NCBI GenBank assembly: GCA_016858145.1
Contig: JAEHOE010000043.1
Coordinates: 434,001-498,000 of the forward strand
DNA from: Edaphochlamys debaryana
Lineage: Eukaryota > Chlorophyta > Chlorophyceae > Chlamydomonadales
DNA length: 64,000 nucleotides
Direction: 5' to 3'
Shown here: in pieces, positions 21,880 to 30,262 of the stretch
How the letters are laid out: the number at the start of each line of letters is the position of its first letter
Numbering within the stretch: position 1 is the stretch's first letter
The notes under the pieces: model-generated
What the model was told of the DNA's origin: nothing
The model's database searches: none
What the model saw: only the letters and a program-made list of their open reading frames with translations
Translations under genes and position numbers: made by a program

Positions 21880-24800
21880 ATGGCGAAGGCCAAGCCCAAG
21901 GCCGCCGCCAAGGCTCGGGCGGCGCTGGCTGCGCAGCTGAAGGCACAGCCAAAGAAGGTCAACCCTTTCGAGCTTAAGACCACCAAGGGTCACTTCGACA
22001 CGATAGGGAAACGCGTTAGCGGCAAGAAACAGAACGTCATTACGGCCCGCCAGGATGCCGTCAACCGGGTACGCATGGCAGCCGGCGCTGCAGCATGCAT
22101 GGCATGGCGGGTCTTGGCGCGCCTGAGGGCGTAGCCGGTCCCGCACGCGCTGTGGCTGCCGACAAGCACTCCGCATGTGCACATCCCCACAGCCTTCCGT
22201 GAGGTGCCTTGCGACCGCGCCCCAACAGGGTCCCTGCGTGCCCATTCTGTCCCGCAGAGGAAGAAGACTCTGCTGGTGGAGTACCGGCAGCTCCGCAAGG
22301 CCAACACCTTCGTGGACCGCCGCTTTGGAGGTGAGGAGACGGCGGCGGCGCCAGCAACCGCCACGCCCCCCCCCCCGCCGGCCGCCTCTAGCAATCCCTT
22401 CTGCCCCGCAACTCGTATCTCACCTCCCCTTACTCTCCCCCCTGCCCGCAGAGTCGGACCCCAACCTGACCGAGTCGGACAAGGGCCTGGCCCGCCTGCA
22501 GGCGCAGCGCCTGAGGCAGGCGGAGCGGGCGGCCAAGAAGAAGCGTGAGCGTGGGGGTGGGGCGTGGGGGTGGGGGAGGGGTGGGAGAGGTGAGGGGCGT
22601 GGAAGGCGGAGGTGTCGACTTTTGGGCCCCCCTTGGCATACCCTGACAATCGCCCCCCGGTTCATCCCTGCAGGCGGCTCCAAATTCACCCTGGCTGACG
22701 GCGGCGGCGATGGCGGCGAGGGCGAGGAGGAGGCGCTGACCCACATGGGCCGATCCCTGGCGGACGACATACGCAACCTCATGGACGTGAGCCTGGGGTG
22801 GGGGGTGGGGGGAGGCGGGGACGGGTGGAGAGGCTGACGTGGCAGGCATGGTCTTGGGCCTGCTGTCCTGATCATCTTGCCTGGGCGCTTGTCTGAGCTT
22901 GTTCCCCCCCTCGTACCGGTACCCCCCAGCGCCCCGAGTTCGACGACCTGGACCAGGAGGTGGTGGAGGAGCTGGTGGCGTCGTACCACTTCGGGGGGGG
23001 AGAGGGCGGCGAGGGGGCGGAGGGGCAGGCGGGCGGCGAGGCCAAGGGCACGGACGGCAAGCCCAAGACGCGCAAGCAGGTGGGCACGAACGGACGGCCG
23101 GGGGCTGGGAAGTGGAATTGTACGGTGCTGGGGGGCTGAGCGCGCGCACTATCTCCGTGCGCTTCATGTACCGTAACCCGTCTGCCGTACCACGTGTGCG
23201 TGCCGTGCCGTACAGATCATGGAGGAGATCATCGCCAAGAGCCGCATGTACCGCGCGCTCAAGGCCAAGCAGCGCGAGGAGGACGAGGCGGCTCTGGAGG
23301 CGGCGGACGCTGCCTTCAAGGACCTGGTGCGCAGCAGCGGCCTGGCCTCGCTCAAGCTGCCGCCGGGGGCGCGCAAGTGAGGCAGAGCGGGGGGCCGGAG
23401 GGGGTGTGAGGCCTTGTGTGTGTGTATGGGCGGACGCGGCCTAATAGGAGCTGGTGCGCTCCTGCCGGAGGCGCGCAAGCGAGGCTGGAGGGATGCACCA
23501 AGCCACCCTTCCACAACCCATTTGACGAGCCATACCCCCGCCCACACCCCACCTCGCACACCGGCAACCTTTGACGCCCTCTCTTATCTCCGCCCTCCCT
23601 TCCTCTCCTCCCACTTGCTCCTCCTCACAGGCTCGAGAATGTCAAGGCCGAGACCGCCGAGGACCGCGCCTACGACGTGGCGGCGCGGGAGCTGGCGTTC
23701 GAGGGCAAGGGCGCGGCGGGGGACCGCACGCTGACGGCCGAGGAGCTGGTCGAGCGGGAGCGGCAGGTGCGGGGCGGGGGAGCTGCGCGTGTGGAGGCGC
23801 TTGAGATGGGCGTTGTGGAGGGGGATTGATACGGGGAGCCCGGGCGGGCAGGTGGCCTTCGCCATACGTCGAGGCGAGGCGACGTGATCCTGCTCAACTT
23901 GGGCGCGCTCTCACTAAACCCTGCCCGCTTGCCTCATACCCTCCTGTCCCGCAGCGGCTTGAAAAGCTGGAGAAGGAGCGGCTCAAGCGCATGCAGGGCG
24001 GCGCGGACAGCGAGGAGGAGGGCGAGGGGGAGAGCGACGACGACGAGGAGGACGGCGGGCGGCGCAAGCGGCGGCGGGAGATGCAGTCCGGTGGGTCCCG
24101 GGGCGTGGATGGGCGTGTTTGTTGGGGCTCGAAGGAGGGCACGGTTGGAGTGGTTAGGTGCTGTCTGGGTGCGCTCCGCACCGCCTGTCTGACCCGCTGC
24201 GTCTCCCCCTCTCCCCCGACCAGGCGACGCCCTGGGCGATGACTATGACTCTGAGGGCGGCGAGGATGAGGACGAGGAGGGCGAGGGCGAGGAGGACGAC
24301 GATGAGGAGGGGGCCCCGGGCGGCAAGGGCATGTCGGAGCTGGACAAGCGGCGCATGCGGGCGGCGGCGGGGGACCACCCCCTGCAGGTGCGGAGCCGGG
24401 AGCGGGGAGGCGGAGGGGAGGGAGAGGGCAGGGGTCGGGACGGGGGCCAGCGTTGGGCTCCCCGCATCAGATGTATCCACCTGGGTATCCACCTCTCTGT
24501 CCAGCTCTAGGTATGGAGTGTTAGTGCTGGCCATCCTAGTCTATGATCTCAGCAACTGAACTTCTTCGCCATCCCTTTGCCCCATCCCTCCCGCTCTGCT
24601 CCCGCAGGAGAAGCTCCGCGAGGTGGCTGCGGCTCTGGCGGCCAAGCATGGCGTGGCGGTGCCCCGCAACCCCTTTCTGGAGGAGGGGGAGGAGGGGGAC
24701 AGCGAGGAGGGGGAGGAGGACGAGGACGAGGAGGGGGAGGAGGGGGAGAGCGGCGACGAGGGCGAGGAGGAGGAGGGCGAGAGCGGCGACGGCGAGGGCT

Positions 24801-27800
24801 CGAGCGGGGAAGGGGAAGAGGAGGACGAAGGTGAGTCTGAGACGGGGCGGAGCGGGGAGAGGCAAGGGATGCACTGGGGACCTCTCATGAGGCGAGGGCG
24901 CTCCTTCATGTGGAGCCATCCGCTTCAGCTGGGAAGCCCATGCTGATGGAGGACGGGACGGTCCCTGTCATGTAGCGCGCCCCATCCGCCCTCTCACCCG
25001 CTCAGCTCCTCCTGCCCTTCCCTCGCCCCCCCCAGAGGACCACGACGACTGCCGGCGCCCGCAGCACCCCGCCTCCACCTCGGAACCCTCCAAGCCCGGC
25101 AAGGCTGCCGCCGCCAAGGCCGAGCCGGAGGGTAAGCCTGGCAGGAAGCCGGCGGCGCCGCTGGACGGCCCGCTGGATCTGCCGTACACGATCCCGCTGC
25201 CCAAGACGTACGGCGAGTTCGCGTCGCTGGTCAACGGCCGCCCGGCGGAGGACCTGCACACCGCCATTGCCCGCATCCGCGCCTTCAACGCCACCGCCCT
25301 CGCCACCGACAACAAGCGCAAGATGCAGGCAAGTGGCTTCACAAGTTGCGATTTTGCTTCCATATTCGGGGTTTGCAGCGTTGAGCGTCAGGCAGCTTCT
25401 GTGAGGTAGACTTTTGTGTGCATGGAGGGGGTCACGGGGGTGAGACACACGCCATGACTGCATGGGGCCTGCACACACGCGCGGCGGCGGCGCAATCACC
25501 GGAGTGATGAATACAGTTTATCTGTTGCCTTCCTGTTGAGCCCTTCGGGCCTTGATGTTTTTTCTACACGAGATTACTGACCGGACGCTACGCACGCCAT
25601 GTGCACATTTGCACGCGCACCCACCCCCGGAGTGACGAACAGTTACCATACTGTTGCCTTCCTAGTGAGCCCTCGGGCACTGATGCTTAACACACAGGAT
25701 TTCTGACCGGACGGAGCCTCTACACGCCCGCACTACGCACCTCTCTCCGCCGCCGGTCTTGAGTGATGATAGACTTTTTCCCTTTCGTATGAGCGCAAAC
25801 ACGCTTTGCGCGTTGATACTTCACAGGATCTGACAAGCCGGCCCCGCGAGCACTCCACCACCGCCCATCACAGTCATTCGCTGTGACGGCACTCGTTGAA
25901 GTCCACGACGGAACACTGCCCTCCGGTGCCCTCCCACACCACCCTCAGCCCGGCCAACCAACAAGCCCTCAACCCAACGAAACAGCTCAACCTCTCCTCA
26001 CCCTCCCCTCCCCCCACCCGTCCGCCCGCAGGAGTTCCTGGGCTTCCTGGTGCAGCACTTTGCGCTGGTGGCGGGCGCGACCCCGCTGCCCCCGCGGGCG
26101 CCCTCCCTGGACGTGCTGACACGGCACCTGCTCTCCATCGCGCCAGAGGTGGGGCGGGGACGGGGCGGGGCGGGATGGGGCGGGAGGAGAAGCGCCCGAG
26201 AGGGGAAGAGCGGGCGTGGCTTCCTCAGCAACGTCGTGTCGTGCGTCTACTGCAACTAAGTCCGCACGCCATCAACACACCTCCCGTCCCAAATCCCCAG
26301 GTGCCGTACTACGCCGCCACCGTCGCCCGCGCCCGCCTGGGCCGCATGGCAGACCAGCAGGCGACGGTCCTGGGGGACACCAAGGGGCCGCAGCAGGCAG
26401 CCGAGGCAGCCGCGGGTGCGGGCGCCGGCGCGCCCTGGCCGTCGGCGCGAGTGGTGCTGCAGCTCAAGCTCTTCGCGGAGCTGTTCCCCACCTCAGACCG
26501 GCGGCACCCCGTGCTGACTCCCGCGGCCCTGATCATCGGTGAGCGGACCGGGCTGTGGGGATGCTGGGCCGGAGGGCGGTGGGCACGGTTGGATAAGCTG
26601 GGCGGCAGCGGTTTGGGGATGCAGGGGCACACAACGCACGGAAGCGTGATCGAGTACGCCGGAGTGATGAATACAGTTTATCTGTTGCCTTCCTGTTGAG
26701 CCCTTCGGGCCTTGATGTTTTGTTCTACACGAGATTACTGACCGGACGCTACGCACGCCTCCCTGCATACACGTGCACGCATGCAACCCCGGAGTGACGA
26801 ACAGTTACCATACTGTTGCCTTCCTAGTGAGCCCTATCGGGCACTGATCCTTAACACACAGGATTTCTGACCGGACGAAGCCCCTACACGCCCGCACTAC
26901 GCACTGCACTCCGCCGCCGGTTTTGAATGATGATAGACTTTTTCCCTTTCGTATGAGCGCAAACACGCTTTGCGCGTTGATAGTTCACAGGATCTGACAA
27001 GCCGGCCCCGCACACACCACCTACGCCCATCATTCCCCGACTGCCCACACAACAGGCATGCCCATGACCTGCCCCACCCCTGCCCCAACCCACCCCTCTG
27101 ATCGCCTCCCTGCCCCTGGCCCCCCATGCCCCCCCCCAGGCAAGTACCTCAACCAGTCGGTGGTGTCCAACCCCCACGAGGCGGCCGTGGGGCTGTGCCT
27201 GTGCTCCCTGCTGACCCACATGGCGGCACCCGGGCGCCGCACCACCCCCGAGGTGCTGGTCTTCCTCCGGGACTGCCTCGCAGCGTTCATGCCGCCGGGC
27301 GTAACGCCTGCGGCGGCGGCGGCAGCAGCAGTGGCGGCGGGCGCCGCAGGCGGAGGCGGCGCAGGCGGGAAGGGCAAGGCGGGCAAGGGCAAGCGGAAGG
27401 CAGCGGAGGCGGCGGGAACGGAAGGCGGAGGCGCGCAGGCATCTGGGCAAGCGCCGGCGCCGGCGGCACCGCCAGCCGAACCCGACCCAGATCGCTTTAT
27501 CCGCTTCCCGGCGGGGTTACTGGCGCTCAGCGGTACTGTTTCCACACCGCCGCCGCCGCTCGACCTGTACGGCACGCTAGGCATGACGTCATCTGATCCG
27601 GCGGTTTCAACCGACGGTTTCAAGGTCTCGCTGCTGCGGGCCGCGCTGCTGTGCGTGCGGCGGCAGGCGGCGCTGGCGGCGGCGGCGGGCCCCGACGGCG
27701 GCGTGGTGGCGTTCTTCGACCAGCTGTTTGCGCCGGTGCTGGCGGCGGTGGGGGCGCTGCAGCACTGCGCCAAGCAGCTGCCGGCCGAGGTGGAGGAGCT

Positions 27801-29229
27801 CAGGTGGGTCGGTCCCGCGCGAAGCTGGGCGTGGGGTGCGCTCATCTCGGGTGGGTAGTCTGTGTCGCTTGATGCAAGGGGTTGGTCAGTGAGACCAGAG
27901 CGGGGGACAACTTTGAGGCGGATGATGGACCGGGTGGGGAAAGGGTGGGAGGGCCTGCGCTGTTGAGGGTCACGCCGTACTGCATTCAACACGCACGCGC
28001 GGCGGCGCACCCACCGGAGTGATGAATACAGATTTATCTGTTGCCTTCCTGTTGAGCCCTTCGGGCCTTGATGTTTTTTCTACACGAGATTACTGACCGG
28101 ACGCTACGCACGCCATGTGCACATTTGCACGCGCACCCACCCCCGGAGTGACGAACAGTTACCATACTGTTGCCTTCCTAGTGAGCCCTATTGGGCACTG
28201 ATCCTTAACACACAGGATTTCTGACCGGACAAAGCCCTTGCATGCCCGCACTACGCACTGCACTCCGCCGCCGGCCTTGAATGATGATAGACTTTTTCCC
28301 TTTCGTATGAGCGCAAACACGCTTTGCGCGTTGATACTTCACAGGATCTGACAAGCCGGCCCCGTACGCAACCTGACACTGCTCACGCATGCACCCTCAC
28401 TGCCGCCCTTCCCAGCCGTCAACACCTCTCAGCACGCCCCTTCCCTTCACTCTCTCTCCCCCTCCCCAGGGTGTCGGTGTACTGCCAGCTGGAGGAGGCC
28501 GCCGCCCGCTGTGTGGCGCAGCGGCGGCCGCTGTTCCACGCGGGCCGCGCGCGGGCGGGGGCGGCGGCGGCGGGCAGCGTGCCCGCGTCGCAGGTAGGTC
28601 TTTGGGACTGGAGCCGGATGGGGAGGCAGCGAGGGTGCGGGCGACGGGTTGGGGCAGCTGCTTGTAGGCTTGGGCCCACTGAGGCAGGCACCCTTTCGCC
28701 TGCCAGCCGCCTTCCTCATCACCCTCCTGCCCCCCCTCCCAACAGGTCCGCGAGTACAACCCCCGCTTCGAGGACGAGTACCGCACGGGGCGGGACTACG
28801 ACCCCGACCGCACCCGCGCCGAGGACCGCCGCCTCAAGCGCCAGCTGGCCAAGGAGCGGAGGGGTGAGCCGGGGCCGCCATCCAAGGGGGGGCTGGGGGG
28901 GCCGTCATCACATCAGAGCTCGGGTCTGCAATGGTGTCCTGCCCAGCGCGGCTTTCCGCCGTGCCCTCGTTCCACGGCTAACACGAGCAGCCCCCTAACA
29001 CGCAACCCACCTCAACCCCCTCAACCCCCTCCCAGGCGCCATCCGCGAGCTGCGCCGCGACGCCGTGTTCATGGCGGGGGAGCGGGACGCGGAGCGGCAG
29101 GTGGTGGACGCGGAGCGGCTGGCGTCGGAGCGGTCCTTCTACAGCGAGCTGCAGCGGCAGGAGGCGGACATGCGCAGCGGCGGGCAGGGGGGCATGAACC
29201 CGCACCTGCGGGGCAAGAAGCGCAAGTAG
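21880..29229 (+). CDS. NOP14: NOP14, small-subunit processome protein; snoRNA host gene
   Basis: Nucleolar protein needed for 18S rRNA maturation and 40S assembly. About 17 exons: 21880-22068, 22259-22330, 22452-22543, 22674-22788, 22930-23079, 23217-23379, 23631-23766, 23955-24090, 24224-24388, 24608-24830, 25036-25328, 26032-26147, 26301-26538, 27140-27804, 28470-28593, 28746-28862, 29034-29229. Family blocks seen: NPFELKTTKGHFDTIGKRV, RKKTLLVEYRQLRKANTFVD then RRFGE, TESDKGLARLQAQRL, acidic Glu/Asp tracts, PLPKTYGEFASLV, KMQEFLGFLVQHFALVAG, KYLNQSVVSNPHEAAVGL, and the C-terminal YNPRFEDEY, DYDPDRTRAEDRRLKRQLAK, AIRELRRDAVFMA. A lineage-specific Ala/Gly/Lys insert lies at ~27300-27480. The basic C-terminus (RGKKRK) fits nucleolar targeting. 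The intron starting at 25329 has a GC donor. TGTAA follows at 29341. Confidence 0.96.
25499..25584 (+). ncRNA. Box C/D snoRNA, array A unit 1
   Basis: Lies in the NOP14 intron 25329-26031. It has C box GTGATGA (25504-25510), D box CTGA (25577-25580), a CCGG/CCGG terminal stem, an internal GCCC-TTC-GGGC hairpin and a C'-like TTGATG. The guide before the presumed D' (CTGTTGCCTTCC) can pair with conserved 18S sequence. Copies of this unit recur at 26659 and 28014. Confidence 0.85.
25627..25710 (+). ncRNA. Box C/D snoRNA, array A unit 2
   Basis: C box variant GTGACGA (25632-25638), D box CTGA (25703-25706), CCGG/CCGG stem, C'-like CTGATG. It shares CTGTTGCCTTCCT plus the GCCC/GGGC hairpin with unit 1, so the two are paralogues, but it has a different sequence before box D (CACACAGGATTT). 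Confidence 0.85.
25753..25841 (+). ncRNA. Box C/D snoRNA, array A unit 3
   Basis: C box GTGATGA (25763-25769), D box CTGA (25830-25833), terminal stem CCGGTCTTG with CAAGCCGG. The internal region GCGCAAACACGCTTTGCGC forms a hairpin. The guide before box D is ACTTCACAGGAT, sharing CACAGGAT with unit 2. Target not identified. Confidence 0.85.
26659..26745 (+). ncRNA. Box C/D snoRNA, array B unit 1
   Basis: Second copy of unit 1, in the NOP14 intron 26539-27139. Boxes, guide and CCGG stem match array A; the main difference is the spacer after C' (TTTTGTTC instead of TTTTTTC). Confidence 0.85.
26789..26874 (+). ncRNA. Box C/D snoRNA, array B unit 2
   Basis: Second copy of unit 2: same boxes and guides. 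The hairpin loop is TAT-C type where array A has a shorter loop; the stem is kept. Confidence 0.85.
26917..27005 (+). ncRNA. Box C/D snoRNA, array B unit 3
   Basis: Second copy of unit 3, with ATGATGA as C box and CTGA as D box. One change near the 3' guide (GATAGTTCACAGG against GATACTTCACAGG). Confidence 0.85.
28014..28100 (+). ncRNA. Box C/D snoRNA, array C unit 1
   Basis: Third copy of unit 1, in the NOP14 intron 27805-28469. One extra A in the first spacer (CAGATTTATC); boxes and guide unchanged. Confidence 0.85.
28143..28228 (+). ncRNA. Box C/D snoRNA, array C unit 2
   Basis: Third copy of unit 2. The loop of the internal hairpin reads TATT; boxes and both guide stretches are unchanged. 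Confidence 0.85.
28271..28359 (+). ncRNA. Box C/D snoRNA, array C unit 3
   Basis: Third copy of unit 3, C box ATGATGA, D box CTGA. The terminal stem CCGGCCTTG with CAAGCCGG is slightly different from arrays A and B but still pairs. Confidence 0.85.
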
Positions 29230-29967
29230 AGGCGGGCTGCTGGTGGGGGTGGAGGAGGAGGTGGAGGGGGTGGGGCAGGAGGAGGAGGGGGCCAGAGCGG
29301 TGCAAGGCGTGGTGGAGGGCCTCAAGAGTTGGAGTTGGAGTGTAAAGGGTCGTCCGCTTTCGGGGCGCTCGTGCAAGACCGATTGGTTGTGCCCTCGTGC
29401 CTGTCGCCATACAGCCCTCAGCAGTAGCGGAGTCCAAAGCCGCATGCCCAGACTTCCCCCACAGCTCATGGCCTGGGAGGGTTCACCCCTCGGGTCGGAA
29501 GACAGAGGAGCGGTCTCCTGGCGGCTAGGGGTCTCTCATATATAGATATCGCTTCCGAACAGCGGACTCAGGTCTCTATCGCCCAGCCGTGCCTTGAATC
29601 AGAGGGTAAAAGTGCACGGCAGACCAGGCGAAAGTGCACGAGGGCGGCAACCCTGCCCCTGCTGCATCACCTTCTTAACCCTCGGGAGGGTCCCACGTTC
29701 AGAAAGGCGGCTACGCTTCACCGGCAGTTGGCATCGGCCGATTCGGCCCTACGAAATGTGATGCCACGACTCCGCGGCACGGCCCCATTGCCGAAAGTAA
29801 TCCTGCCCCTATGACCCCTGCTCTCGTAGCCAAGCGCTTCGTTGATGCTCTTCTACCCCTGCTCTCGTAGCCCACAACCCCTGCTTACCCTGCTGAACTG
29901 CCGCCTCCTCACTGCGCCCGGTTCCCACATCCCTCAGCGTTCAACCGTAAGCTTGTTGTGTGGGGCT
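29230..29967. other. NOP14 3' flank
   Basis: Holds the NOP14 3' UTR (signal at 29341). No gene is seen beyond it. A near-direct repeat of CTACCCCTGCTCTCGTAGCC type occurs at about 29820-29870. Confidence 0.5.
29341..29345 (+). terminator. TGTAA polyadenylation signal of NOP14
   Basis: TGTAA, the standard volvocine polyadenylation signal, 111 bp after the NOP14 stop. Confidence 0.6.
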
Positions 29968-30262
29968 AGCAAGGGGGGCTTGCAGGGGGTGTTGTGTGGG
30001 GGCTTGCAGGGGGTGTTGCGTGGGGGCTTGCTAAGGGGCTTGCAGGGGGTGTTGCGTGGGGGCTTGCAGAGGGTGTTGCGTGGGGGCTTGCTGAGGGGCT
30101 TGCAGGGGGTGTTGCGTGGGGGCTTGCAGAGGGGCTTGCAGAGGGTGTTGCGTGGGGGCTTGCATGGGCGCTAGCAAGGGGGGCTTGCATGGGGTGCTGC
30201 AGGGGCTGTTGCAAGGCGGCCTTGCGTGGGGGCTTGCACCTCGCAGGGGGTGTTGCAGGGGC
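29968..30262. repeat. G-rich minisatellite, 12/24/36-bp units
   Basis: Tandem array built from GGGGGCTTGCA and GGGGGTGTTGCGT segments, spaced in multiples of about 12 bp. The units are imperfect (TTGCTAAG, TTGCTGAG and TTGCAGAG variants). Because units are multiples of three, frames stay open on both strands, but the resulting peptides are pure repeat and not taken as genes. G runs all lie on the plus strand. Confidence 0.9.

Follow-up and report, generated by a model that had tools for sequence, protein, structure and literature searches.

Three introns of the NOP14 gene in the green alga Edaphochlamys debaryana each carry the same cassette of about 345 nt, and each cassette comprises three units that resemble box C/D small nucleolar RNA (snoRNA) genes, giving nine units in total, all on the sense strand of the host. 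They lie within a 64,000-nt stretch of DNA, hereafter the window (assembly GCA_016858145.1, contig JAEHOE010000043.1, positions 434,001 to 498,000). An earlier interpretation of this DNA that drew on its letters alone (the sequence-only reading) had proposed this three-unit set in three NOP14 introns, and the proposal is borne out by the sequence, the alignment of the copies, the gene model and a Pfam match. We estimate a probability of about 0.9 that these are nine intron-encoded box C/D snoRNA genes, present as three copies of one three-gene cassette; this would remain the best reading in light of the boxes, the terminal stems, the distribution of variable columns, the G+C content and a guide match to 18S ribosomal RNA (rRNA).

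Three NOP14 introns carry a common cassette

The spliced product of the host gene matches the Pfam family PF04147 (Nop14) with E = 2.9e-121. The gene model begins at 23631, with 5′ exons upstream of that position lying outside it, and contains ten introns, of which the three that bear arrays measure 703, 601 and 666 nt versus 133-220 nt for the seven others. The arrays had initially been placed at 25499..28359; the start of that interval stands, and its end moves to 28360, where the last unit ends. Individual units are 87-91 nt long and are separated by linkers of 39-40 nt.

23631..29229, + strand: NOP14, modelled portion, 11 exons through the stop codon (gene model and Pfam match)
25329..26031, + strand: NOP14 intron with array 1, 703 nt, GC-AG (gene model)
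26539..27139, + strand: NOP14 intron with array 2, 601 nt, GT-AG (gene model)
27804..28469, + strand: NOP14 intron with array 3, 666 nt, GT-AG (gene model)
25499-25842, + strand: array 1, 344 nt (sequence, alignment)
26659-27006, + strand: array 2, 348 nt (sequence, alignment)
28014-28360, + strand: array 3, 347 nt (sequence, alignment)

Anatomy of the nine units

All nine units combine a box C of the RTGATGA type, a CTGA box D and a short GC terminal stem, as the sequence-only reading had described. The box pairs are GTGATGA...CTGA in unit 1, GTGACGA...CTGA in unit 2 and RTGATGA...CTGA in unit 3, such that the box C sequence RUGAUGA near the 5′ end is exact in six of the nine (units 1 and 3) and altered at one position in the other three (unit 2, GTGACGA), with box D (CUGA) near the 3′ end in 9/9. 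The terminal stem that joins C and D has at least 4 bp in every unit when G-U pairs are allowed. It reads CCGG/CCGG in units 1 and 2 and GCCGG-n-CTTG/CAAGCCGGC in unit 3, where copy 2 has TTTG instead of CTTG and a G-U pair results. In addition to these previously described features, each of the nine units contains an internal D′ (TTGA in unit 1, GTGA in unit 2, ATGA in unit 3), an internal C′ (TTGATG, CTGAT and TTGATA, respectively) and a GC hairpin between the two, and the spacing of C, D′, C′ and D is regular. The loop of this hairpin differs among the copies of unit 2 and its stem is constant. Within one intron, units 1 and 2 are 74-76% identical; they are tandem paralogues with a common internal D′ guide and diverged D guides.

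25499..25586, + strand: unit 1 copy 1; C 25504-25510, D′ TTGA 25536-25539, C′ from 25552, D 25577-25580
26659..26747, + strand: unit 1 copy 2; C 26664-26670, D′ 26696-26699, D 26738-26741
28014..28102, + strand: unit 1 copy 3; C 28019-28025, D′ 28052-28055, D 28093-28096
25626..25712, + strand: unit 2 copy 1; C GTGACGA 25632-25638, D′ GTGA 25665-25668, C′ from 25680, D 25703-25706
26788..26876, + strand: unit 2 copy 2; C 26794-26800, D′ 26827-26830, D 26867-26870
28142..28230, + strand: unit 2 copy 3; C 28148-28154, D′ 28181-28184, D 28221-28224
25752..25842, + strand: unit 3 copy 1; C 25763-25769, D′ ATGA 25789-25792, C′ from 25813, D 25830-25833
26916..27006, + strand: unit 3 copy 2; C 26927-26933, D′ 26953-26956, D 26994-26997
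28270..28360, + strand: unit 3 copy 3; C 28281-28287, D′ 28307-28310, D 28348-28351

To compare these motifs with chance we scanned for a box C with at most one change together with CTGA and a stem of at least 4 bp, using dinucleotide shuffles as the control. The + strand of 25329-28469 yielded nine matches, which represent three families of three copies rather than nine independent matches, versus a shuffle mean of 0.16 and a maximum of 2 (200 shuffles). Across both strands of the whole window there were 21 matches versus a shuffle mean of 6.9 and a maximum of 14 (40 shuffles), and the 12 matches outside the arrays fell inside the shuffle range. The units also stand apart in composition, with a G+C content of 0.47-0.54 versus 0.64-0.69 in the seven modelled NOP14 introns that lack arrays.

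A common guide in units 1 and 2 matches 18S rRNA

Complementarity to rRNA of at least 10 nt upstream of D or D′ is present in units 1 and 2, where it amounts to 13 contiguous base pairs at D′. The 13-letter guide responsible is identical in all six copies of these two units.

25522..25534, + strand: D′ guide CTGTTGCCTTCCT of unit 1 copy 1; 13-bp duplex with 18S AGGAAGGCAGCAG, one G-U

Five of ten fetched 18S-bearing contigs were used in the first pairing, and one of the ten, L020, served alone for position indexing and for the shuffle controls. Under a strict rule that tolerates no mismatch and at most one G-U pair, 13 bp were reached by 0/300 shuffles of the unit 1 guide, by 2/300 shuffles of the unit 2 guide and by none of 704 control 25-mers taken from NOP14 intron sequence outside the arrays. 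With D′ placed at TTGA or GTGA, the fifth-position rule for methylation sites, as given in a passage of PMC8053127, leads to 18S index 420 in L020, which corresponds to yeast A420. Units 1 and 2 probably direct 2′-O-methylation at the 18S adenosine that corresponds to A420 of yeast, and all six of their copies would guide this one methylation. The first 400 nt of the large-subunit (LSU) rRNA in L020 are 100% identical to the yeast 25S used for comparison, and yeast numbering is therefore apt for index 420.

The U14 site has the yeast number 414, which gives an offset of 4 at that site, and the Arabidopsis counterpart of A420 would be A424. In the Arabidopsis table of PMC8053127, C418 (U14) is followed next by A440, and A424 is absent from it. 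In yeast, 18S-A420 methylation is guided by snR52, which also guides 25S-U2921, according to a passage of PMC9418376.

The genome assembly itself was also searched. The guide complement CAAGGAAGGCARCAG occurred at two places in it, neither in an 18S context, and no 18S bearing this motif was found in the 141.9-Mb assembly; an LSU motif led to one 25S-like fragment and to no full rDNA. That fragment (L022:1482-1570, G000:C23:754620) is 89 nt long and 83% identical to positions 2433-2521 of the yeast 25S. Its surroundings contain no Rfam match at gathering score and have a long inverted repeat nearby; it may be a mobile element or an insertion derived from rDNA. As a separate observation, the ten fetched contigs (L012-L021) are filed under bacterial genomes and bear eukaryotic 18S rRNA, an instance of contamination of public records, and L020 resembles yeast rDNA.

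Rfam, folding and guide controls

Several results weigh against the snoRNA assignment or its predicted target. No Rfam family reached its gathering score in the whole window, and the array stretch has a single snoRNA match, to TtnuCD16, which is at noise level (17.5 bits with a gathering score of 75, E 2.8). Folding energies lay barely under those of shuffles, with z from -0.04 to -1.93 for the nine units, two of which were folded without their full 5′ stem, and folding by itself is uninformative for these units. When a looser duplex score was applied, 4/600 shuffles and 8/704 control 25-mers equalled the D′ guide of unit 1. The assignment to A420 hinges on the placement of D′, the internal boxes being degenerate, and a D′ at CTGT would move the site to a G three bases on. 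The 18S used for pairing belongs to eukaryotic contaminant contigs filed under bacteria and not to the alga's own rDNA, and since the motif used to fetch all ten contigs contains the target, they were bound to carry it. Lastly, four of the six guides, namely the D guides of all three units and the unit 3 D′ guide, fail to beat their own shuffles.

These four guides were searched against the 18S of the fetched contigs, the yeast 25S, and the U2, U5 and U6 small nuclear RNAs (snRNAs) of the genome. For the D guides of units 1, 2 and 3 and the D′ guide of unit 3, in that order, the longest strict duplexes in 18S and 25S were 9-10 bp and were equalled by 29, 74, 22 and 53 of 300 shuffles; under the looser score, 18, 25, 30 and 8 of 100 shuffles were as good. 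The best guide duplex of unit 3 reaches 10 bp, inside the shuffle range. Both D guides of units 1 and 2 fit U2 snRNA at AGATCATGTGTAG with a mismatch, a fit equalled by 15 and 23 of 300 shuffles, respectively, and U2, U5 and U6 of the genome offered no convincing guide match. In positions 2896-2945 of the yeast 25S, around U2921, the four guides pair over runs of at most 6.

Variation and copying of the cassette

Differences among the copies concentrate in the linkers, where 24 of 81 aligned columns vary versus 10 of 270 in the units (Fisher p = 5.4e-10, for columns that are not strictly independent given gene conversion). All ten variable unit columns lie outside D, D′ and the 13-nt D′ guide. 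Unit 1 has two of them, an inserted G in the spacer from C′ to D and one column between C and D′. Unit 2 has four, one in C′ itself and three in the loop of the D′-C′ hairpin. The other four belong to unit 3, where they are the R of box C, the column just after C′ and two columns in the region of the terminal stem. The expectation that boxes and guides would be constant is thus nearly correct, being upheld for D, D′ and the 13-nt guide and failing for the R of unit 3 box C and for unit 2 C′.

In the linker between units 1 and 2, copies 1 and 3 differ at 0/42 columns and copies 2 and 3 at 15/42; between units 2 and 3 the corresponding values are 9/39 and 4/39. Copies 1 and 3 further have an identical stretch of 157 nt in common, and the mosaic of linkers among the copies suggests gene conversion. 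Such near identity raises the alternative that these are real C/D snoRNAs of which some copies are redundant, one functional array being enough and the others a by-product of duplication and gene conversion with no dosage role. The closeness of the copies, the linker mosaic and the 157-nt identity would all fit this account; however, the changes concentrate in the linkers and spare D, D′ and the 13-nt guide in all three copies, and therefore no copy appears released from selection. We regard redundancy of this kind as possible, if fairly doubtful.

Intron-to-intron similarity is limited to the cassette plus at most ~28 nt, and the intron ends are not common to the three; therefore it was the cassette that moved and not the intron. 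Three dispersed copies of ~345 nt in different introns, with no intron ends in common, could also be expected of a repeat family or mobile element with fortuitous C/D-like motifs. Yet the cassette, and likewise unit 2 alone and unit 3 alone, occurs at three places only in the 141.9-Mb assembly of 502 contigs (3/3 candidates scored for each of these three queries), divergence lies mostly in the linkers and an 18S guide is present, all of which makes a mobile origin extremely improbable. A mobile element is disfavoured on the basis of these three places only, no search aimed at element proteins or terminal repeats having been made.

Proposed mechanism and relation to the host gene

Under the snoRNA reading, splicing of NOP14 pre-mRNA would release the array introns, and each would then be processed into three RNAs of ~87-91 nt, which, judging from other members of the family, would be protected by C/D core proteins. 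We infer that the nine snoRNA genes would be expressed in this way. Units 1 and 2 would lead to 2′-O-methylation at the 18S adenosine equivalent to yeast A420, of which the match is observed and the methylation predicted. The D guides of these units have diverged, and unit 3 carries two guides of its own. The cassette may afterwards have been copied into other NOP14 introns without the intron ends, and gene conversion may have re-homogenized parts of the copies, as the mosaic would indicate. The likely outcome would be a raised dosage of the 18S guide in step with an 18S assembly factor. It is plausible that splicing supplies guide RNAs along with an assembly protein, and host genes of this sort are widespread; a real dosage coupling of the 18S guide and NOP14 can be put forward only tentatively, and we lean towards doubting it. 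Further still, it seems unlikely that six intronic guide copies for 18S A420 are kept in NOP14 through cassette copying in such a way that the amount of snoRNA is tied to the output of NOP14, with a GC-AG intron as a possible means of tuning.

This last element refers to the donor of the array 1 intron at 25329, which reads CAG/GCAAGT (the slash marks the splice site) and preserves the reading frame (KMQ/EFLGF). It is the sole non-GT donor among the ten modelled NOP14 introns, the other nine being GT. The array could be imagined to act on its host: if introns were retained, or the GC-AG intron spliced in alternative ways, the level of NOP14 would be coupled to snoRNA demand. A single GC donor beside nine GT introns would agree with such regulation; however, GC-AG introns are present at low frequency in most genomes, and we consider host regulation very improbable. 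Just downstream of NOP14, at 29950-30240 of the window, there is a G-rich tandem array of the GGGGCTTGCA type with 12-nt steps.

Comparison with known systems

The arrangement described here is of an already known sort in these algae, functional-looking and ordinary in kind. Intronic snoRNA gene clusters have been published for Chlamydomonas reinhardtii by Chen et al. (2008, Genetics 179:21-30), who reportedly described several snoRNAs per cluster, often isoforms of one another, within protein-gene introns. As in that alga, several homologous snoRNAs (units 1 and 2) lie within one protein-gene intron in E. debaryana; what differs is that a three-gene cassette recurs here in three NOP14 introns. 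What appears to be new here, as far as the sequence goes, is the pair of paralogous units 1 and 2 with a common internal guide that matches 18S. Among papers that deal with snoRNAs, NOP14, introns and host genes, none was algal as judged by title, and we do not claim that snoRNAs hosted by NOP14 are unpublished.

For Ostreococcus tauri, PMC7671301 gives 72 intronic snoRNA genes, 12 clusters of which only two are intronic, and a 33% share of ribosome-biogenesis hosts; the E. debaryana units are likewise C/D, intronic, clustered and housed in a ribosome-biogenesis gene. A statement in PMC5122169 holds that homology searches from land-plant snoRNAs fail in green algae with few exceptions.

Two known guides invite direct comparison with units 1 and 2. 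Like yeast snR52, these units have the predicted 18S site A420, but they have no second guide to 25S U2921 and they are intronic and multi-copy. Like U14 (SNORD14, RF00016), they present a CCTTCCT guide core to the same 18S stretch. Unlike U14, they are without domain A (CATTCGCAG), and their core precedes D′, whereas that of U14 precedes D. An identity of units 1 and 2 with U14 was rejected, there being no domain A and no SNORD14 match in the window or the array stretch.

Other probable snoRNA loci in the genome

Elsewhere in the genome there are two SNORD14 matches, of 56.3 bits (E = 2.6e-10) and 51.3 bits (E = 6.2e-9), both under the gathering score of 64. The first (L023, G000:C48, match 154679-154699, - strand) lies among further C/D-like matches and between reading frames of a NOG2-like nucleolar GTPase gene: a downstream stretch of 148 aa matches Nucleolar GTP-binding protein 2 (E = 6.8e-64), and an upstream stretch of 37 aa has no Pfam match. 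The second locus (L024:123-700, 725-1146 and 1400-1525, G000:C44) contains a 124-nt tandem repeat (4.7 copies), four C/D-like matches and the second U14-like gene, whose D box is CCGA; the four C/D-like matches precede it and are of one sequence type. This locus is probably a larger snoRNA array. Together the two U14 loci, at which the C/D-like matches were counted without a shuffle control, suggest that clustered snoRNAs are usual in the E. debaryana genome.

Implications

The NOP14 arrays would thus offer a clean natural case of snoRNA gene amplification, in which paralogues with one common and one diverged guide arose and the cassette was then copied between introns. The same reading predicts a methylated 18S adenosine that E. 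debaryana would have in common with yeast and that is absent from the Arabidopsis list. It is also useful for the annotation of volvocine genomes, where Rfam was silent at gathering score on the present window.

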